Positions 17,375 through 41,410 of a stretch of DNA of 64,000 nucleotides are shown one piece after another. Source of the DNA: Lachnospiraceae bacterium (GTDB taxonomy: Bacteria; Bacillota; Clostridia; Lachnospirales; Lachnospiraceae); contig JAFSTN010000025.1 in assembly GCA_017450485.1 (NCBI GenBank), positions 124,001 to 188,000 of the forward strand. The letters are read 5' to 3'. Position 1 is the stretch's first letter; the number at the start of each line of letters is the position of its first letter. Below the pieces are notes generated by a model that did not search any database, had not been told where the DNA came from, and saw only the letters and a program-made list of their open reading frames with translations. Position numbers and translations under genes: made by a program.

Positions 17375-18079
17375 ATGTCAAATATACTGGTATGTGATGA
17401 TGATAAGACCATAGTGGATGCCATAGAGATCTATCTTACACAGGAAGGCTACAGCGTCTATAAAGCATATGACGGTGTACAGGCTATTCAAGTACTCGAT
17501 GAACAGGATATTCATCTGCTGATCATCGACATAATGATGCCGAAGCTGGATGGGATACATGCAACACTCAAGATAAGGGAGAAGTATTCGATCCCGATCA
17601 TCATCCTGAGTGCGAAGTCGGAGGATGCCGATAAGATCCTGGGACTGAACATCGGAGCCGATGATTATGTGACCAAGCCTTTCAATCCGCTTGAGCTCGT
17701 AGCGAGAGTCAAGTCGGCACTCAGGAGATACACTTCGCTGGGCAGTATCACCGGAGATGAGTCATCCAATATCTATACTACCGGAAGTCTTGTGATCAAC
17801 GACGATACCAAGCAGGTATATGTGGATGAGGATGAAGTAAAGCTGACCCCCATTGAGTTTAATATCCTGAAACTACTGGTCGGCAATGCAGGCAAGGTTT
17901 TTTCCTCGGATCAGATATATGAGAGTATCTGGAATGAGGAGGCATACGGTTCGGATAATATCGTAGCCGTACACATCAGACATATCAGAGAAAAGATAGA
18001 GATAGACCCGAAGAACCCCAGATATATCAAAGTCGTATGGGGGATAGGCTACAAAGCCGAGAAATATGAGGGAAACTAA
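17375..18079 (+). CDS. OmpR/PhoB-family response regulator
   Basis: This 234-residue regulator has a receiver domain (residues 1-120: acidic pocket CDDD, phosphoacceptor Asp52 in LLIIDIMMPKLDG, KPF switch) and a C-terminal winged helix DNA-binding domain (VKLTPIEFNILKLLVGNAGKVFS ... VAVHIRHIREKIE). ATG 17375 with a ggaaaggg site was chosen; a longer frame upstream would run through the inverted repeat. It overlaps the region just before the kinase gene, so the two are one operon and a cognate pair. Target genes are unknown; the neighbouring glycan cluster is a possible one. Confidence 0.93.
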   Translation: MSNILVCDDDKTIVDAIEIYLTQEGYSVYKAYDGVQAIQVLDEQDIHLLIIDIMMPKLDGIHATLKIREKYSIPIIILSAKSEDADKILGLNIGADDYVTKPFNPLELVARVKSALRRYTSLGSITGDESSNIYTTGSLVINDDTKQVYVDEDEVKLTPIEFNILKLLVGNAGKVFSSDQIYESIWNEEAYGSDNIVAVHIRHIREKIEIDPKNPRYIKVVWGIGYKAEKYEGN

Positions 18080-18080
18080 G

Positions 18081-20555
18081 ATGTTAAAAAAAGACAAAAA
18101 CAGTGTTCCGAAGAAGGAACGTGAACCCAAAGCACCGAAGAAAATCGTAAAGACAGGCTTTCTGAAATTTCTGCAGCATGTGCTTATAACCGGTGCGGCA
18201 GTGATGCTTCTCATGTATGTAGCCAGTTCCATCGTGGTAGTCAGTTCATATGATAAGAATGAGATATACCATCTGAGCGCGAGCGATCAGGGACGTGCAT
18301 ATGAGGATTCTGTATTCTTTAATACCATTCTGGGCAAGGAAACCGAGGGAGTGCTTAAATATGTGACGATCAGAACGCAGATGGAGACAGACGGCAAGTA
18401 TGATCCGGATAAGATAATAGATGTGGCTTCATACAATGCCAGACAGGAGAACGGCTACAGCGGGATAGAAGATGTTACCGCACAGTATCATCTCGGGGAT
18501 CTGCTTAAATGGACAAAATACGGTTTCGAATACAAGGAAGCACAGGTTAATTCCGATACCGTATCCGGAAATTATTTAAGCTACAGTGACGGCAGTGATA
18601 CCCATTCCATGCTTATCAACAGATATACGACAGTTGAAGGACTCGGCATAGAGAATCTTACGGATAACTGGGATGATTATGACGCTTTGGCCGGAAGTAT
18701 TCAGGCATGTTCCGAGGATCTGTACTATAACTATACGGATTATCTGAGCATGACTGATTACTACGATGCCCTCAACAGCAATATCAGATACTGGATAAGG
18801 ATGGGTGAAGGGCCGGATGCGGTCGTATATACCAACACTGCCCTGAAACTGAAAGACGAACCCAAGGTCGCCAGTACTTTTATGAATTACGGGAAATACA
18901 TCAGCTATGATGCTGATCGTATGGTTTATGATACGAATACCGCAATCAATGAATCCGCATTTAATGCTCTGATGTCCAGATACAGGTATGCTTATCCCGA
19001 TGACTGCAGGATATTTATCGGGGCGGATATGTCCATGCCCGCCAATGATGCGATCAGAGCAGCCAGAGCCGGATTCTTGTCAACATTCCTGCCCGATGCA
19101 GATATAACATATGGGATCATAATCCTGTGTCTGATAGGGTATCTGATCCTGCTTGTGATATGTACGATACATGAAGGTGTTGTACGTAATGAAGATGGTA
19201 CTAAAAGCATCAGATTCACCGACTTTGACAATACTCCGATAGAACTCTGGTTTATCATATTAGCAGTTATCGTGGTACTGTTTATCGGGATCCCCGCTAC
19301 TATTGCTTCAACTTATTTTGACAGCTTCAGGTACGAAGCAATGAGTATCCTTAAGGATATATATGTCTATGTCATCTTCGGTGTAGTAGTATTCCTTTTC
19401 GATGTACTGACACTCTGGCTGTACTATTCGCTTGTCAGACGTATCAGAGGCCGTCATATATGGAAACAGAGTTTCCTCTATAGAGTTCTGACCGCGATCG
19501 GACAGGGAGCGGTCAAGATTTATGATAACGGTAACCTGCTGCTTAAGAGCGTGGTTCCGTATGTGGGGCTGATGCTGTTCAATCTGTTCATGATAATTCT
19601 GACTGCGGTTTCGGATGATAATCTGGTGCAGTTTGTGATAATCGGCATACTCATAGTTATCGATGCTTTAGTCGGATACTTCATATTCAAGCAGGTGAAA
19701 GATCGTGATGAGATCATGAGCGGCATGAAGAGGATCATATCCGGAGATCTGTCATATAAAGCCGATATAGACTCTGTCCATGGTGATAACAGAGAGCTTG
19801 GAGTATATGTGAATTCGATAGGTGAGTCGGTACGAAACGCAGTCGAACAGAGTATGAAGGATGAACGCATGAAGACCGAGCTCCTGGCAAATGTCAGTCA
19901 TGATATACGCACACCTCTGACGAGTATCATCAACTATGTGGATCTGATCAAGCGCGAGAACATCGATGATATGAAGATCGCAAGCTATGTGGATATTCTT
20001 GATGAGAAATCACAGCGGCTGAAAACACTTACAGATGATTTGATCGAAGCCAGCAAAGTCTCAAGCGGTAATGTGGAACTTGAGCTTATGAAGATGAACC
20101 TGCCGGAAATGGTAACCCAGGCATTGGCGGAATTTGATGAGAAATTATCCGAAAAGGCCCTTTCTGTGGTCACACGAACGGATAATCTGACGATCCCGAC
20201 CATGATGGCTGACGGTCAGAGCCTGTGGAGAGTGATGGAAAACCTGCTGGGCAATGTATGCAAATACGCTATGCCGGGTACGAGAGTTTTCGTTGATATG
20301 TTTAATCGCGAGAACGCGGAGACGGGTATGGATATAAGCCTCAGGATCACGAATACATCCGAGAATCCTCTGCCGGCCGATCTGACTGATCTGACCGAGA
20401 GGTTCAGCAGGGGCGATGCATCTCGGACGACCGAAGGGTCCGGACTGGGCTTGTCCATTGCGAAATCGCTGACCGAATTGATGGGTGGTACTTTCTGCCT
20501 ATATTCCGAAGCTGACCTCTTTAAAGCGGAGATCACTTTTAAAACCGTACAGTAA
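18081..20555 (+). CDS. Sensor histidine kinase with multiple membrane segments
   Basis: This 824-residue partner of the preceding regulator has one TM segment near residues 30-52 and an extracytoplasmic sensor region of about 290 residues rich in Tyr and Asp. Five more hydrophobic segments follow (about residues 345-545). A short linker leads to HisKA with His607 in NVSHDIRTPLTSI, and the HATPase domain has ENLLGNVCKYA and GSGLGLSIAKSL. ATG 18081 has gagggaa at a good distance; an ATG at 18066 inside the regulator gene is less likely. The ligand is not evident. Its stop is followed within eight bases by structured element 1. Confidence 0.92.
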   Translation: MLKKDKNSVPKKEREPKAPKKIVKTGFLKFLQHVLITGAAVMLLMYVASSIVVVSSYDKNEIYHLSASDQGRAYEDSVFFNTILGKETEGVLKYVTIRTQMETDGKYDPDKIIDVASYNARQENGYSGIEDVTAQYHLGDLLKWTKYGFEYKEAQVNSDTVSGNYLSYSDGSDTHSMLINRYTTVEGLGIENLTDNWDDYDALAGSIQACSEDLYYNYTDYLSMTDYYDALNSNIRYWIRMGEGPDAVVYTNTALKLKDEPKVASTFMNYGKYISYDADRMVYDTNTAINESAFNALMSRYRYAYPDDCRIFIGADMSMPANDAIRAARAGFLSTFLPDADITYGIIILCLIGYLILLVICTIHEGVVRNEDGTKSIRFTDFDNTPIELWFIILAVIVVLFIGIPATIASTYFDSFRYEAMSILKDIYVYVIFGVVVFLFDVLTLWLYYSLVRRIRGRHIWKQSFLYRVLTAIGQGAVKIYDNGNLLLKSVVPYVGLMLFNLFMIILTAVSDDNLVQFVIIGILIVIDALVGYFIFKQVKDRDEIMSGMKRIISGDLSYKADIDSVHGDNRELGVYVNSIGESVRNAVEQSMKDERMKTELLANVSHDIRTPLTSIINYVDLIKRENIDDMKIASYVDILDEKSQRLKTLTDDLIEASKVSSGNVELELMKMNLPEMVTQALAEFDEKLSEKALSVVTRTDNLTIPTMMADGQSLWRVMENLLGNVCKYAMPGTRVFVDMFNRENAETGMDISLRITNTSENPLPADLTDLTERFSRGDASRTTEGSGLGLSIAKSLTELMGGTFCLYSEADLFKAEITFKTVQ

Positions 20556-20562
20556 AACTGGA

Positions 20563-20718
20563 TAGAAAGGGCCGGTGCGACAATACATCCACCGCAGGCA
20601 CGCTCTCGCTGCTAGCCCCCTCGTCACGTTACTAAGCTCGTGAAATACCTCGCTAAGTAACGACGGGGCTGCTAAGCACCTGCTTGTGGATATATTATCG
20701 CGCCGGCCCTGCTTTCTA
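20563..20718 (-). ncRNA. Structured element, copy 1 (candidate new RNA)
   Basis: This 156-bp near-palindrome lies between the convergent kinase and prs genes. The outer arms tagaaagggccggtgcg and cgcgccggccctgctttcta are complementary. They continue into the shared core (atccaccgcagg against cctgcttgtggat). Inside are a hairpin cgttact/agtaacg and, on the minus strand at 20598-20612, a hairpin gcagc-GAGA-gcgtgc with a GNRA loop. The prs stop codon (20716-20718) lies in the outer arm, so on the minus strand it would be the prs 3' UTR. The strand is inferred from the GNRA loop and from G-U pairs that favour minus. Its function is unknown; a bidirectional terminator is possible. Confidence 0.6.
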
Positions 20719-21903
20719 GAAAGTGAACTCCTCGCGATTGTTGTATCGATCGAGTATCTTGCGGATCTTCTCGGTAGGAGTATTTAAGTCTGACATAGGC
20801 GCATCGTGATTCATGAAATCTATGATGGATGCGATGAACTTGCCCATGTCGGCCTGAAGATAGTAAGGCCTCGTATAGAGATCGGGATCGATATAATTCA
20901 GATTCGTGGTCACGATCCTGTCGAAATAGCATTTCTCATATGCTTCGTCGAATGCGGCGAGTCCATCGGTGAAGAGACCGAAGGTAGTGCATATATATAC
21001 GCGTTTGGCATTCATTTCCTTGAGCTGTCTGGCCGTATCGATCATCGAACCGCCGGAAGAGATCATATCGTCTATGATGATGCAGTCTTTGCCGTCTATA
21101 TTGTCGCCGAGGAATTCGTGGGCGACTATAGGATTCTTTCCGTTCACCATCTTGGTATAATCACGTCTCTTATAGAACATACCGGCATCCAGTCCAAGCA
21201 CCGATGCGAAATAGATGGATCTGTCCAGAGCGCCTTCATCGGGAGATATGATGATGGTGTGCTCCTTGTCGATGATCATATCGCGCTCATTGCTCAAGAG
21301 AGTGCGAGCGAACTGGTACATTGCATTGAAGTTATCGAATCCGGTGAAAGGAGCCGAGTTCTGGATACGGGGATCATGTGCATCAAAAGTGATGAAATTC
21401 GTGATGCCCATATTGGACAGTTCTTTGAACATATAAGCCGCATCCAGGGATTCGCGGCCACTGCGTTTATGCTGTCTGCCCTCATACAGAAAAGGCATGA
21501 TCACATTTATGCGATGTGCTTTGCCGTCTATGGCAGCAAGTATACGCTTCAGATCCTGGAAGTGGTCATCGGGAGAGTAGTGATTCTCGAACCCCTGCAT
21601 CGTATATGTGAGGGAATGGTTGGTCACATCGGTGATTATGAATATATCATCGCCTCGTATAGAGTCGAGCAATGTACATTTGCTTTCACCGCTGCCGAAT
21701 CTGGGCAGATCTATGCGTGCTATGTAATTATCTTTGATATATCCCTGAAAAGCAGGATCGGCTTTGAATTTATTGTGGAGATCCTGTCTGAATTCGATCA
21801 GATACCGGTTGACACTGCTCCCGAGCTTCTCGGCACAGGGAGGTATGATGAGTTTGATGGGTGCAACAGCCATCAGCTGCTCTAATTTCTGTAGATTTGC
21901 CAT
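20716..21903 (-). CDS. prs: Ribose-phosphate pyrophosphokinase (long form)
   Basis: This enzyme makes PRPP from ribose 5-phosphate and ATP for nucleotide, His and Trp synthesis. The PRPP-binding loop is IIDDMISSGGSM, and the earlier motif SPDEGALDRSIYFAS replaces the common SPDxGGxxRA. At 395 residues it is longer than the usual 310-320; the extra length is mainly an N-terminal part before RIDLPRFGSGE and inserts such as the KRSGRESLDAAYMF region. This resembles a divergent clostridial branch. It is a single gene on the minus strand with its own promoter (TTGACG-17-TAAAAT) and cggag before the ATG. Confidence 0.9.
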   Translation of the reverse strand: MANLQKLEQLMAVAPIKLIIPPCAEKLGSSVNRYLIEFRQDLHNKFKADPAFQGYIKDNYIARIDLPRFGSGESKCTLLDSIRGDDIFIITDVTNHSLTYTMQGFENHYSPDDHFQDLKRILAAIDGKAHRINVIMPFLYEGRQHKRSGRESLDAAYMFKELSNMGITNFITFDAHDPRIQNSAPFTGFDNFNAMYQFARTLLSNERDMIIDKEHTIIISPDEGALDRSIYFASVLGLDAGMFYKRRDYTKMVNGKNPIVAHEFLGDNIDGKDCIIIDDMISSGGSMIDTARQLKEMNAKRVYICTTFGLFTDGLAAFDEAYEKCYFDRIVTTNLNYIDPDLYTRPYYLQADMGKFIASIIDFMNHDAPMSDLNTPTEKIRKILDRYNNREEFTF

Positions 21904-25421: not shown

Positions 25422-26432
25422 ATGGCTAAAATAGGCATAATCGGAGCAGGCAGCTGGGGCACAGCCCTTGCATGGCTCCTTAACAATAACGGACATGAAT
25501 GTATCATGTATTCGGCTCTGCCCGATGAGATAGATATGTTCAGGACATATCACGAGAATAAGGATAAACTTCCGGGAGTCATTCTGTCGGAGGCCACAAC
25601 CTATACAACCGATATATCCGAGGCTATCAGCGGACGTGATGTGATCGTGATGGCTGTACCGTCCAAGTTCGTCAGAAGTACGGCTAGACTGATGTCACCT
25701 CACGTGGCTGACGGACAGAAGATCATAGACGTAGCTAAAGGCATAGAAGAGGGCACCTCATATACCATGTCACAGATCATCAACGAGGAGATACCTCAGG
25801 CGGATGTATCCGTTCTTTCGGGACCTTCACATGCCGAAGAAGTAGGCAAGGGAATCCCCACTACGATCGTGGTCGGCTCCAAGTCCAAAGACACTGCTAA
25901 ATATCTTCAGGATGTATTTATGAGCGATGTGTTCCGGGTTTATATAAGTCCGGATATCCTCGGAATTGAGATCGGCGCCGCACTTAAGAATGTGATCGCA
26001 CTTGCTGCCGGAGCAGCTGACGGACTGGGTTACGGAGACAACACCAAGGCAGCGCTTATCACCCGCGGTATAGCTGAGATATCCCGTCTGGGTGTCGCCA
26101 TGGGCGGAAATGTGCAGACATTTGCAGGTCTGACAGGAATGGGCGACCTGATAGTTACATGTGCTTCGATGCATTCCAGAAACCGCAGATGCGGCATCCT
26201 GATCGGTCAGGGCAAGAGCCTCGAGGAGGCTCAGGCAGAGGTCAAGATGGTTGTAGAGGGTGTATACTCGGCCAAGGCAGCCATGGAGCTCTCTAAGAAG
26301 TACGATGTCGAGATGCCTATCATCACAGAGGTCAATCGTGTCCTGTTTGAAGGAAAGAACCCCTCCGAGGCGGTGAAAGACCTCATGATGCGTGACAAGA
26401 AGATCGAGAACCCGCTGATACCCTGGGATTAA
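25422..26432 (+). CDS. gpsA: Glycerol-3-phosphate dehydrogenase [NAD(P)+]
   Basis: GpsA reduces dihydroxyacetone phosphate to glycerol 3-phosphate. The Rossmann motif IGIIGAGSWGTALAWLL opens the protein, SGPSHAEEV follows, and the catalytic Lys lies in ALKNVIALAAG. The protein has 336 residues, the family length. Together with plsY it gives a glycerolipid pair downstream of der. The ribosome binding site is aggag, about 8 bases before the ATG. A hairpin and structured element 2 begin right after the stop. Confidence 0.97.
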   Translation: MAKIGIIGAGSWGTALAWLLNNNGHECIMYSALPDEIDMFRTYHENKDKLPGVILSEATTYTTDISEAISGRDVIVMAVPSKFVRSTARLMSPHVADGQKIIDVAKGIEEGTSYTMSQIINEEIPQADVSVLSGPSHAEEVGKGIPTTIVVGSKSKDTAKYLQDVFMSDVFRVYISPDILGIEIGAALKNVIALAAGAADGLGYGDNTKAALITRGIAEISRLGVAMGGNVQTFAGLTGMGDLIVTCASMHSRNRRCGILIGQGKSLEEAQAEVKMVVEGVYSAKAAMELSKKYDVEMPIITEVNRVLFEGKNPSEAVKDLMMRDKKIENPLIPWD

Positions 26433-26464
26433 GCTTGACATTTTAATGATCGGGAATGTCAAGC
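26433..26464 (+). promoter_or_regulatory. Hairpin after gpsA that competes with structured element 2
   Basis: The perfect 10-bp arms gcttgacatt (26433-26442) and aatgtcaagc (26455-26464) have a 12-base loop. There is no T-run, so it is a poor terminator. The second arm is also the outer 5' arm of structured element 2, where it pairs with gcttgccatcccc at 26575-26587. The two folds exclude each other, an attenuator-like arrangement. Confidence 0.5.
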
Positions 26465-26587
26465 ATACATCCACCGCAGGCACGCTTTCGCTGCTATCAC
26501 CTCGTTACGTTACTAGGCTCGTGAGATACCTCGCCAAGTAACGACGGGCTCTAAGCACCTGCTTGTGGATATATGCTTGCCATCCCC
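26452..26587 (-). ncRNA. Structured element, copy 2 (candidate new RNA)
   Basis: This 136-bp copy shares the core and inner hairpin with copy 1. Its outer arms are different in sequence (gggaatgtcaagcat against atgcttgccatcccc) yet complementary. The inner stem changes AGC/GCT of copy 1 to GGC/GCC, a compensatory pair. The minus-strand hairpin at 26480-26494 has the loop GAAA where copy 1 has GAGA; both are GNRA. A weak minus-strand promoter (TTTAAA-16-TATGAT, 26598-26625) would start a transcript at its edge. It lies between gpsA and moxR, both on the plus strand. Its function is unknown. Confidence 0.6.
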
Positions 26588-26636: not shown

Positions 26637-27461
26637 ATGTCTGATAATAAATTTGCGTCCACAAATACATACGTCGCTTCTCAGGAACTGCTTGACGCCG
26701 TAAACGTGGCTATGGTCCTGGAGAAGCCTCTACTCATAAAGGGGGAGCCCGGCACAGGCAAGACCATGCTGGCTGCAGCGGTTGCTGAAAGCCTGGGCAA
26801 GCGCCTAATCATATGGAACATCAAGTCGACCACCAAGGCGCAGGACGGTCTGTATATGTATGATACGATCCAGCGACTCTATGATGGGCAGTTCGGTGAA
26901 GAAGGCGTGGATGATATCGCCAGATATATCAAACTCGGCAAGCTCGGAGAGGCTTTCAAGTCTGATGAACAGGTCGTTCTTCTTATCGATGAGATCGACA
27001 AGGCTGACCTGGAGTTCCCCAATGACCTGCTGTGGGAGCTTGATCAGATGGAGTTCTATATCCACGAGACCAGGGAGACGGTCAAGGCAAAGACACGCCC
27101 TGTGGTTATCATTACATCCAATGCGGAGAAGGAGCTTCCGGATGCTTTTCTCCGGAGATGTATATTCCACTATATCGACTTCCCGGATGCACCGCTTATG
27201 GAAGAGATAGTCAGGACACATTTCCCCGATGTTGAGGCCAATCTGCTTAAAAATGCCATGGATGTATTTTACTGGATCAGAGGGCTCAAGGACGTGCGTA
27301 AGAAACCTTCCACATCGGAACTTATCGACTGGGTCAACGCCCTTCAGATAGGAGGCATGGATCCGGCTTTGATCAAAAAGAATCTGCCCAATCTCGGCGT
27401 TGTCATTAAAAAGGACGAGGATATGGCAGTGGTCAAGAGCAGGACCAACGAACTGAACTGA
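26637..27461 (+). CDS. MoxR-type AAA+ ATPase
   Basis: This 274-residue AAA+ protein has Walker A GEPGTGKT (about residue 37), Walker B VVLLIDEIDKAD, sensor-1 VVIITSNAEKELPDAFLRR and an arginine finger region. MoxR ATPases work with VWA-domain proteins as chaperones in metal insertion or in assembly of enzyme complexes. The next gene codes for such a VWA protein, 20 bases downstream, so they form a pair. The start has a strong aaaggag site. The client is not evident nearby. Confidence 0.92.
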   Translation: MSDNKFASTNTYVASQELLDAVNVAMVLEKPLLIKGEPGTGKTMLAAAVAESLGKRLIIWNIKSTTKAQDGLYMYDTIQRLYDGQFGEEGVDDIARYIKLGKLGEAFKSDEQVVLLIDEIDKADLEFPNDLLWELDQMEFYIHETRETVKAKTRPVVIITSNAEKELPDAFLRRCIFHYIDFPDAPLMEEIVRTHFPDVEANLLKNAMDVFYWIRGLKDVRKKPSTSELIDWVNALQIGGMDPALIKKNLPNLGVVIKKDEDMAVVKSRTNELN

Positions 27462-39306: not shown

Positions 39307-39389
39307 GTATTGAAATCATCCCCACTTTAAGGGTAAAATCGGAAGGACGGAACTTCCACCCTGAAGTGGGGATTTTTATGCGTAGATTA
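39307..39389. repeat. 83-bp direct repeat B with hairpin, right edge of cassette
   Basis: This is the second copy of the cassette repeat. It folds in the same way (outer stem ccccactt/aagtgggg, inner ggaag/cttcc). The hairpin ends directly before ATG 39378 of the radical SAM gene, and the last 12 bases of the repeat are the first four codons of that gene. The only purine-rich segment that could bind the ribosome (gtgggga) is in the 3' arm, so the stem could mask it. Confidence 0.85.
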
Positions 39390-41243
39390 GCTTTAAGTGA
39401 TGACATACTTTTAAAGATCGATAAGCCTGCCAGGTATATCGGTGGCGAGATCAATTCCTGCATGAAGGATGCGGCTTCGGTCGACATCCGTTTCGCCATG
39501 TGCTTTCCCGATGTATATGATATAGGCATGTGTCATCTGGGCATTCAGATATTGTATGACATGTTCAACTCCTGGGATGATGTGTGGTGTGAGAGAGTGT
39601 ACTCCCCGTGGCCTGATCTGGATGCCATCATGCGTCGCGATAATTTCCCTCTTTTTGCACTTGAGAGTCAGGAACCGGTCGGAAACTTCGACTTTCTGGG
39701 TATCACCCTCCAGTATGAGATGTGTTATACGAATATACTGCAGATACTGGATCTTGCAGGTATTCCTCTGCTCGCAACCGAGCGCAGCGATGATGATCCG
39801 ATCATCATAGGCGGCGGTCCTTGCTCATATAATCCCGAACCCATAGCAGATTTCTTTGACATCTTCTATATCGGTGAGGGTGAGACCAGATACCGTGAAC
39901 TGCTCGATACATATAAAGAATGCAAAGCGGGCGGGTATGGAAGACTTGAGTTTCTAAGAAGAGCATGTCGTATCCCCGGTATGTATGTTCCACAGTTCTA
40001 TCGGGAGACGTATAATCCCGATGGCACCATCAAAGAAAGGGTTAAACTCTATGACGAAGCCCCTGATACTATCCGAAAGGAAGTAGAGATGAACCTGTCG
40101 GATACCTATTATCCGACGAAACCTCTGGTTCCTTTCATGCAGACGGCTCAGGACCGTGTGACTCTGGAGATACAGAGAGGTTGTATCAGAGGATGCAGAT
40201 TCTGTCAGGCTGGACAGCTGTACAGACCTGTACGCGAGAGAAGTGTGGAGTATCTTAAGTCCATAGCGCTCGAGATGCTTGATTCCACAGGCCTTGAGGA
40301 ACTGACATTAAGTTCACTCAGTTCCAGTGACTACAGCGGCCTCGAAGAACTGCTGGAATTCCTGATAGATGAGTGTAACAAGAGACATGTGAACATATCG
40401 CTTCCGTCATTACGTATAGATGCTTTTTCTCTTGATGTGATGAGTAAGGTCCAGGATGTGCGTAAGTCATCCCTGACATTCGCACCCGAGGCCGGAACTC
40501 AGAGGATGCGTAATATAATCAATAAAGGCCTGACCGAAGAAGTGATATTGAAAGGCGCTTCCGAAGCCTTCCACGGCGGATGGCGCAGAGTCAAGCTGTA
40601 CTTCATGCTCGGACTTCCGTTTGAGACGGATGAGGACATCGAGGGTATAGGAGAGCTGTGCAACAATGTTGCCATGACATTCTTCGATGAGATCCCAAAG
40701 GAAGAACGCCGTGAGCCGGTTCAGATCGTAGCATCGACGTCCTTCTTTATCCCGAAGCCCTTCACACCACTGCAGTGGGCTCCGATGGGCACCAGGGAAG
40801 AATTCGTCCGCAAAGCTCATGTATGCTTAAACGGCATACATTCCCAACTTAACCAAAAGCGTATCAAGTATAACTGGCATGATACCGATACCAGTGAACT
40901 TGAAGGTGTGCTCGCCAGAGGTGACAGACGTCTCGCCCCCTTGATCCTTGAAGTATATAAGCGCGGACAGATCTATGATGCCTGGACCGAGTACTTCAAC
41001 TACCAGACATGGCTGGATGTCATGGACGAAATGGGTATCGACAAGGATTTCTATACTACGAGAGAGCGCGCCGATGATGAGATATTCCCGTGGGACTTCC
41101 TGGATATCGGTGTGACCAAGCGCTTCCTGCTTAACGAGTGGCACAACGCCCGTGCAGGCATAGTCACTCCCAACTGCCGCGATAAATGCTCCGGCTGCGG
41201 CGCCGCCGTATTTGGCGGAGGCATATGTTTCAGTGAGAGATAG
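39378..41243 (+). CDS. B12-binding-like radical SAM protein (TIGR03960 family)
   Basis: This 621-residue protein begins with a B12-binding-like domain (about residues 1-240: PARYIGGEINS, FAMCFPDVYDIGMCHLGIQ, IIGGGPCSYNPEP) followed by a radical SAM barrel with the cluster motif RGCIRGCRFCQAG (CxxxCxxC). The C-terminus ends in CRDKCSGCGAA. It always pairs with the DUF2344 protein, the gene that follows. The function is not known; a link to RNA or ribosome modification is suggested by its neighbours rng and rplU. ATG 39378 lies inside repeat B; an in-frame GTG at 39366 is an alternative. Confidence 0.9.
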   Translation: MRRLALSDDILLKIDKPARYIGGEINSCMKDAASVDIRFAMCFPDVYDIGMCHLGIQILYDMFNSWDDVWCERVYSPWPDLDAIMRRDNFPLFALESQEPVGNFDFLGITLQYEMCYTNILQILDLAGIPLLATERSDDDPIIIGGGPCSYNPEPIADFFDIFYIGEGETRYRELLDTYKECKAGGYGRLEFLRRACRIPGMYVPQFYRETYNPDGTIKERVKLYDEAPDTIRKEVEMNLSDTYYPTKPLVPFMQTAQDRVTLEIQRGCIRGCRFCQAGQLYRPVRERSVEYLKSIALEMLDSTGLEELTLSSLSSSDYSGLEELLEFLIDECNKRHVNISLPSLRIDAFSLDVMSKVQDVRKSSLTFAPEAGTQRMRNIINKGLTEEVILKGASEAFHGGWRRVKLYFMLGLPFETDEDIEGIGELCNNVAMTFFDEIPKEERREPVQIVASTSFFIPKPFTPLQWAPMGTREEFVRKAHVCLNGIHSQLNQKRIKYNWHDTDTSELEGVLARGDRRLAPLILEVYKRGQIYDAWTEYFNYQTWLDVMDEMGIDKDFYTTRERADDEIFPWDFLDIGVTKRFLLNEWHNARAGIVTPNCRDKCSGCGAAVFGGGICFSER

Positions 41244-41246
41244 TAA

Positions 41247-41399
41247 GGTATAGCGGTATATATCCATAAGCAGGTACGTAGGAGCGGCCGGTCCTTAGAT
41301 CGCGTTTCTCAGCGATCTTAGTACCGCTGCACGCGATCTCGTAGCCGGACGTAAAGAACACGTCCAAGCGTGCCTGCGGTGGATATATGCCGATATACC
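41247..41399 (+). ncRNA. Structured element, copy 3 (candidate new RNA, diverged)
   Basis: This 153-bp element is in the opposite orientation to copies 1 and 2. The outer arms ggtatagcggtatatatcca and tggatatatgccgatatacc are complementary and differ from the outer arms of the other copies. The core (ataagcagg with cctgcggtgg) is shared. The inside is different: two perfect hairpins, gatcgc/gcgatc and ggacgt/acgtcc, and a possible gcacgc/gcgtgc stem. It lies between the radical SAM gene and the DUF2344 gene, only four bases after the first stop, so it is in the transcript. Its function is unknown. Confidence 0.6.
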
Positions 41400-41410
41400 G
41401 AGGACTTTGC

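Follow-up and report, generated by a model that had tools for sequence, protein, structure and literature searches.

A dispersed family of intergenic palindromic elements in Lachnospiraceae with signatures of both a MITE and a structured RNA

The window studied here is a 64-kb stretch of a Lachnospiraceae genome in which an imperfect palindrome recurs between genes, and the question raised by this locus is whether the repeat is a structured RNA, a mobile DNA element or both. A preliminary description, made from the sequence alone, had reported three copies and interpreted them as RNA rather than as a MITE. All three copies (w1, w2 and w3) were found as placed (table 1). The number three proved too low for the genome, in which a covariance model detects 10 copies (E ≤ 1).

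Table 1. Copies of the element in the window and their main features (G, genome; L, locus).
Feature	Position	Strand	Basis and relatives	Flanking genes
Copy w1 (full visible extent of the element)	20563..20718	-	Match to own-genome covariance model; orthologue L137 in G006	Histidine kinase, 18066-20555 (+); ribose-phosphate pyrophosphokinase-like, 20716-21903 (-); convergent
Outer stem P1 of w1, around the core	20569..20709	-	Predicted fold; arms ~20569-20592 and ~20685-20709	
Hairpin P4 of w1, type GCAGC-GAGA-GCGTGC (minus strand)	20598..20612	-	Sequence and loop survey	
Copy w2	26452..26587	-	Match to own-genome covariance model; orthologue L049 in G006	NAD(P)H glycerol-3-phosphate dehydrogenase, 25422-26432 (+); AAA ATPase, 26637-27461 (+)
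Copy w3	41247..41400	+	Covariance model match; same arms in G003 (L073); site empty in G006 (L314)	B12-binding radical-SAM, 39366-41243 (+); radical-SAM-associated, start ~41411 (+)
Enlarged P4 hairpin of w3	41345..41365	+	Also in the G006 orthologue of w1; absent from w1 of the window and from w3 of G003	

The element can be divided into four stems and hairpins. P1 is the outer stem, to which some genomes add further outer complementarity and terminal repeats; P2 is a short stem of the type GCAGG/CCTGC; P3 is a larger hairpin with a conserved T.T (U.U) mismatch; and P4 is a tiny hairpin with a GNRA cap. Each window copy, read on its GNRA-hairpin strand (the minus strand in w1 and w2, the plus strand in w3), shows a long outer stem, an asymmetric internal loop, the GCAGG/CCTGC stem, and a larger and a tiny hairpin. 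The folded strand of w2 is antisense to both flanking genes and that of w3 is sense to both. The internal loop had been described correctly, as had the arms, which in w1, w2 and w3 are specific to the copy and complementary within it, and the GNRA hairpins of the first two copies (GAGA and GAAA). A longer hairpin takes the place of the GNRA hairpin in w3, and the G003 orthologue of w3 has a plain GNRA. The 18-mer ATCCACCGCAGGCACGCT is identical in the three copies, the chance expectation being 0.04 matches at up to three mismatches. Folding on the strand with the ATCCACCGCAGG arm, compared with 200 dinucleotide shuffles, gives z = -8.1 for w1, -6.6 for w2 and -4.8 for w3.

Six copies from this genome, including the three of the window, were examined for covariation. 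Paired cells amount to 91.5% (79.4 ± 1.5 in shuffles) and 18 of the 43 pairs have changed on both sides (8.8 ± 2.0 in shuffles); neither value was reached in any of 500 shuffles, which ignore relatedness, the structure being taken from the same six sequences. The element therefore shows covariation above chance against shuffle controls, and it also carries an RNA-specific motif, GNRA. A P4 loop was found in 193 of 201 distinct copies: 175 are GNRA, none is GNYA and 18 are other loops, the copies being related to one another and thus not independent events. The GNRA loops comprise GAGA (73), GAAA (53), GCAA (20), GGGA (16), GCGA (10), GGAA (2) and GTAA (1), and several of these types recur across different genomes. 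The T.T mismatch of P3 is retained in 90 of 93 aligned copies from named genomes in a model-fitted alignment. By these features the core looks like RNA.

The preliminary description had suggested a comparison with Rfam and a covariance-model search, and both were carried out. No family of Rfam 15 reaches its curated cut-off within the window. Relaxed scans of w1 and of 12 loci gave weak matches, none of them near the cut-off over the element; the best, RT-5 (RF03026), is a local match to w1 alone with 22.8 bits against a cut-off of 45.7 and was rejected. At E ≤ 0.01 the covariance model built from the six own-genome copies matches 23 of the 61 genomes sampled: all seven of the genus, 15 of 30 others of the family (partial in G011 and G019) and, partial and weak, one of the 24 that represent other families in the order. 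The largest number of matches in a single genome is 54, with up to 55 candidates scored. A broader model (E ≤ 1e-4) matches 42 of 294 genomes in a sample of the order and four of 299 in a sample of the phylum, all of them, own genome included, in the window's own family; stricter filters were applied in these samples and at most 11 candidates were scored per genome, so that their copy numbers are lower bounds. A DNA pattern in which the P3 stem alone is specified occurs in at least 117 stretches of genomes of named species. Among the 80 matches listed, the carriers are titled Lachnospiraceae, Butyrivibrio, Eubacterium, Oribacterium and other Clostridia or Firmicutes, and 79 also match the covariance model, the exception being L228. 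Viral contigs contain no match to the P3-stem pattern, and plasmid and phage collections contain no match to w2. In the samples searched these elements were found in one bacterial family, which is Lachnospiraceae judging by how most named carriers are titled.

The way in which paired positions change was followed in two settings. Nine comparisons of P1 between orthologous copies of the genus, three of which share one locus so that not all are independent, contain 16 double Watson-Crick changes. One-sided changes are 14 between Watson-Crick and G.U pairs against three between Watson-Crick and A.C, with eight between Watson-Crick and other mismatches and 11 more of mixed kind. The second setting is the amplified family of G022, where a sequence-only alignment of 20 copies has double changes in 16 of 48 pairs. 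Its outer-arm columns 11-22 (12 pairs, 240 cells) contain 206 unchanged cells, 33 double changes, no one-sided change and one broken pair; the core pair 50-101 is C-G in 10 copies, U.G in six and U-A in four. Paired changes with almost no intermediates are not predicted by RNA selection alone. The evolution of P1 in place thus looks like RNA selection, whereas the arms of the G022 copies look as if they change in concert. The earlier claim that selection acts on the fold finds support in the loop survey, in the covariation beyond shuffles and in the preference for G.U over A.C changes.

These two patterns bear on a DNA-only interpretation, which we consider rather unlikely. The folded single strand or cruciform would be the substrate of a recombinase or transposase, in the style of attC or of IS200/IS605 ends; the tip would be read as DNA, and hairpin-templated copying would keep the arms complementary. 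Integron attC sites also exist in many sequence versions with one conserved folded structure; it is their ends that are conserved and their loop end that is variable. The constancy of the folded structure is common to both, but the Lachnospiraceae element keeps the tip and varies the outer stem. The concerted changes in G022 fit such a foldback element, as do the even gene orientation described below and the weak strand asymmetry of outer-arm mismatches, which number 89 G.U and 64 A.C over all 201 copies when counted without energy bias. A stronger asymmetry in a count that was not restricted to outer arms (115 G.U to 30 A.C) was set aside as raised by conserved inner positions, and G.U counts on model-fitted alignments, which favour G.U by construction, were left out. 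Hairpins of the type GC-GNNA-GC are stable as DNA too. Against this reading, every one of the 175 loops of GNRA or GNYA type has a purine at its third position, which is an RNA hallmark, and orthologous copies favour G.U over A.C changes. Y1 transposases (PF01797) are moreover absent from six of the seven genomes of the genus, all seven of which carry the element; membership of the IS200/IS605 or REP/RAYT groups was rejected on this ground.

Core and arms can differ widely in conservation. Two elements of G006, L049 and L072, have cores 98.8% identical and unrelated arms (33%), and in G014 the loci L124 and L125 have cores 95% and arms 35% identical; the orthologues L043 and L073 share 100% of their arms. 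In these comparisons the arms follow the site and not the core, and the two appear to have separate histories. The distribution of the 21-nt P4 variant of w3 (table 1) points to exchange between loci. At 14-40 nt beyond the model, 20 of 23 copies of G031, 30 of 85 named copies and one of 45 copies of the window's genus have more copy-specific complementarity than the control.

Comparison of orthologous junctions reveals insertion polymorphism. At a junction between gatB, an identity supported by gene analysis, and a gene that we take to be gatA, G000 and G002 carry the element in opposite orientations, their arms being unrelated; in G001, G003, G005 and G006 stop and start are a few nucleotides apart, and the spacer of G004 is longer and lacks the element. 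At a second junction, between genes that are presumably dnaJ and prmA, the element is antisense in G000 and G001, sense in G003, G005 and G006, and absent in G002 and G004. Four more elements of G005 and G006 correspond to element-free sites in the genome of the window, and the w3 site is empty in G006 (table 1); at single sites such comparisons read equally as gain or as loss. The family is thus short, non-coding, multi-copy, dispersed and polymorphic for insertion, as a MITE would be.

Some loci at these junctions have additional hairpins. The G003 copy at the dnaJ-prmA junction has an independent hairpin next to it and may represent an insertion of its own. At L048/L173 in the same genome a free hairpin, AATAACCCGAG...CTCGGGTTATT, adjoins the element at a place where relatives carry it between similar arms; the hairpin is possibly an arm pair without a core. 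Since a free hairpin adjoins the G003 element, insertion of the core into pre-existing palindromes such as terminators was considered as a general rule, and it was rejected because the empty sites contain no palindrome by eye. At L139 the sequence of the empty site is similar to one of the outer arms. At the dnaJ-prmA junction of G006 (L172) the P3 hairpin is duplicated internally, with two further hairpins between.

In G022 the unit is ~310 bp long and is bounded by inverted repeats of the TAGGTAATTGCGAAA type, an end found at 76 places in this genome and at one in the control. Target duplications of ~10 bp were seen by eye at L407, L409, L419, L420 and L422, five among 12 candidate pairings of ends, which were drawn from 19 loci and are in part spurious. 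Three loci of named genomes (L199, L235 and L237) have G022-type ends with duplications of 9-13 bp, and one named genome has a different end, CAATGTCATTAAG, with 10-bp duplications (L183 twice, L231). Terminal inverted repeats that are constant within a genome, with target duplications, are thus seen in G022, in CAJTEN and in a small number of named genomes; where ends are recognisable, the variable stem is inside these putative transposon ends. Six CAJTEN copies (L197, L198, L204, L210, L227 and L246) adjoin GCCGTGAATAGTAAC, apparently a further repeat that serves as target.

Flanking repeats were also counted against cross-pairs. A perfect 10-mer repeat flanks nine of 85 named copies (3/119 cross-pairs), and direct repeats of at least nine letters in 10 flank 32 of the 85 (11/119). 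There is no such excess of direct repeats in the window's genus g1 (3/45 vs 8/120), in G031 (6/23 vs 19/120) or in G014 (2/12 vs 24/120), and the G022 value (9/16 vs 51/102) is set against a control lifted by shared flanks. No terminal repeat or target duplication was recognised at w1, w2 or w3 themselves. The G022 end motif occurs at 11 places in G031 and at 13 in the control, although the G031 outer stems looked similar by eye. No autonomous element or transposase with G022 ends was found in 11 G022 loci inspected.

The preference of the preliminary description for RNA over a MITE is not supported: constant ends with target duplications, the finding that it had named as contrary to its reading, occur in other genomes, and empty orthologous sites, even gene orientation and a junction occupied in both orientations also speak against it. 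An ordinary MITE, its palindromic middle without function and its core conserved only through recent spread and gene conversion, would account for the terminal repeats and target duplications, for the near-identical amplified copies of G022 and for core exchange between loci. We nevertheless regard this as unlikely, given that cores within G031 are only ~75% alike (median) and yet keep the fold, that GNRA recurs with different letters in different genomes and that orthologous copies contain double changes.

The gene context was established for 124 distinct elements, with ORFs predicted by a simple longest-ORF rule. Two ORFs flank 103 of them, with the element sense to both in 35 cases, antisense to both in 35, between convergent genes in 25 and between divergent genes in eight. 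The remainder are at an edge (12), inside a predicted ORF (4) or in loci too short to be classed (5). With four of 119 classed elements inside a predicted ORF, the family is nearly always intergenic. This position would suit a cis-acting mRNA element used by host operons, a terminator or a processing or stability hairpin, and several G031 arms resemble bidirectional terminators by eye (A-run, stem, T-run). Such a role is very improbable: there is no orientation preference (35:35), the neighbouring genes are unrelated, presence differs among congeners at the same junction, and a scan allowing loops of 3-8 found no terminator-like site at w1. The GNRA is kept in 29 of 35 sense and 29 of 35 antisense copies, which counts against selection through the neighbours' transcripts alone. 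A riboswitch or attenuator was considered because the 3' arm of w2, L034, L035 and L037 seemed by eye to pair with a third segment; the idea was dropped, as the orthologue of w2 lacks this pairing and orientation is even.

The explanation that we favour, with somewhat better than even confidence, is a MITE family mobilised in trans that carries a selected RNA module and exchanges cores between its copies. The unit enters intergenic gaps in either orientation, as the comparison of junctions indicates, with duplications of ~10 bp where ends are recognisable. It would be moved by a transposase that acts in trans at the terminal repeats; the folded strand would be transcribed independently of the neighbouring genes, and selection would keep the RNA fold. 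The arms would stay complementary through paired changes while gene conversion exchanged cores between loci, and these two processes would give core and arms their separate histories. Sequence comparison shows the mobility and the folding; the transposase, the transcript and the benefit are what we infer. A more specific and distinctly doubtful variant holds that the identity of the family is its RNA fold and not a fixed sequence: the GNRA core would be kept, and self-templating at or after transposition would rewrite the long terminal stem by copying one arm from the other on folded cDNA or on a single strand, so that each insertion would have its own complementary arms.

Short interspersed repeats are usually sorted either as selfish DNA with constant ends or as functional structured RNA, and the present family has the signatures of both; they occur together in many rumen and gut Lachnospiraceae. 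If the RNA step is true, the family would be a mobile non-coding RNA of bacteria. It would also be a natural laboratory in which to study the co-evolution of paired bases, because one genome contains dozens of versions of the same stem. The family is also a warning that multi-copy candidates for structured RNA can be transposons.

The nearest kinds, judged from the available portions of the sources, are pneumococcal and Bacillus repeats. BOX, RUP and SPRITE of Streptococcus pneumoniae are short mobile repeats that lie between genes in high copy number; they are non-autonomous, have much predicted RNA structure and are likely to be parasitic (PMC3049150). The Lachnospiraceae family has the same intergenic, high-copy, non-autonomous and RNA-structured character in another lineage; it is set apart by description, since the portion available describes no copy-specific outer stem or GNRA three-way core for them. 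The repeats bcr1-bcr18 of the Bacillus cereus group are intergenic, about half of their copies are transcribed, some are MITE-like, and bcr10 and bcr18 have conserved secondary structure (PMC3446304); as described there, MITE-like and conserved-structure families are separate, whereas the Lachnospiraceae element has both signatures. The palindromic candidate structured RNAs from human microbiomes (PMC8040213) are, like the present element, palindromic and predicted on both strands. The four examples shown in the available part of that report are mostly or entirely from Bacteroidetes, and our family may equal an unnamed one of its 250. We found no earlier description of such a Lachnospiraceae family in the part of the literature within reach.

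Some copies lie close together. Among 14 distinct pairs closer than 1 kb, 11 are head-to-head (the folded strands turn their 5' ends towards each other), three point in the same direction and none has the opposite arrangement (close-pair loci: L055, L061, L079, L086, L094, L178, L182, L214, L241, L248 and L253). One close pair in the opposite arrangement occurs among the matches of the order sample (G064:C2, 96004 + and 96908 -). A composite transposon formed by two close copies was considered and rejected, as the intervening DNA looked like ordinary host sequence at the loci inspected; between one such pair it is presumably panB-panC-panD. In L069 of G011, positions 1307-1533 contain three weak partial matches of 33 nt spaced 97 bases apart, a possible tandem array.
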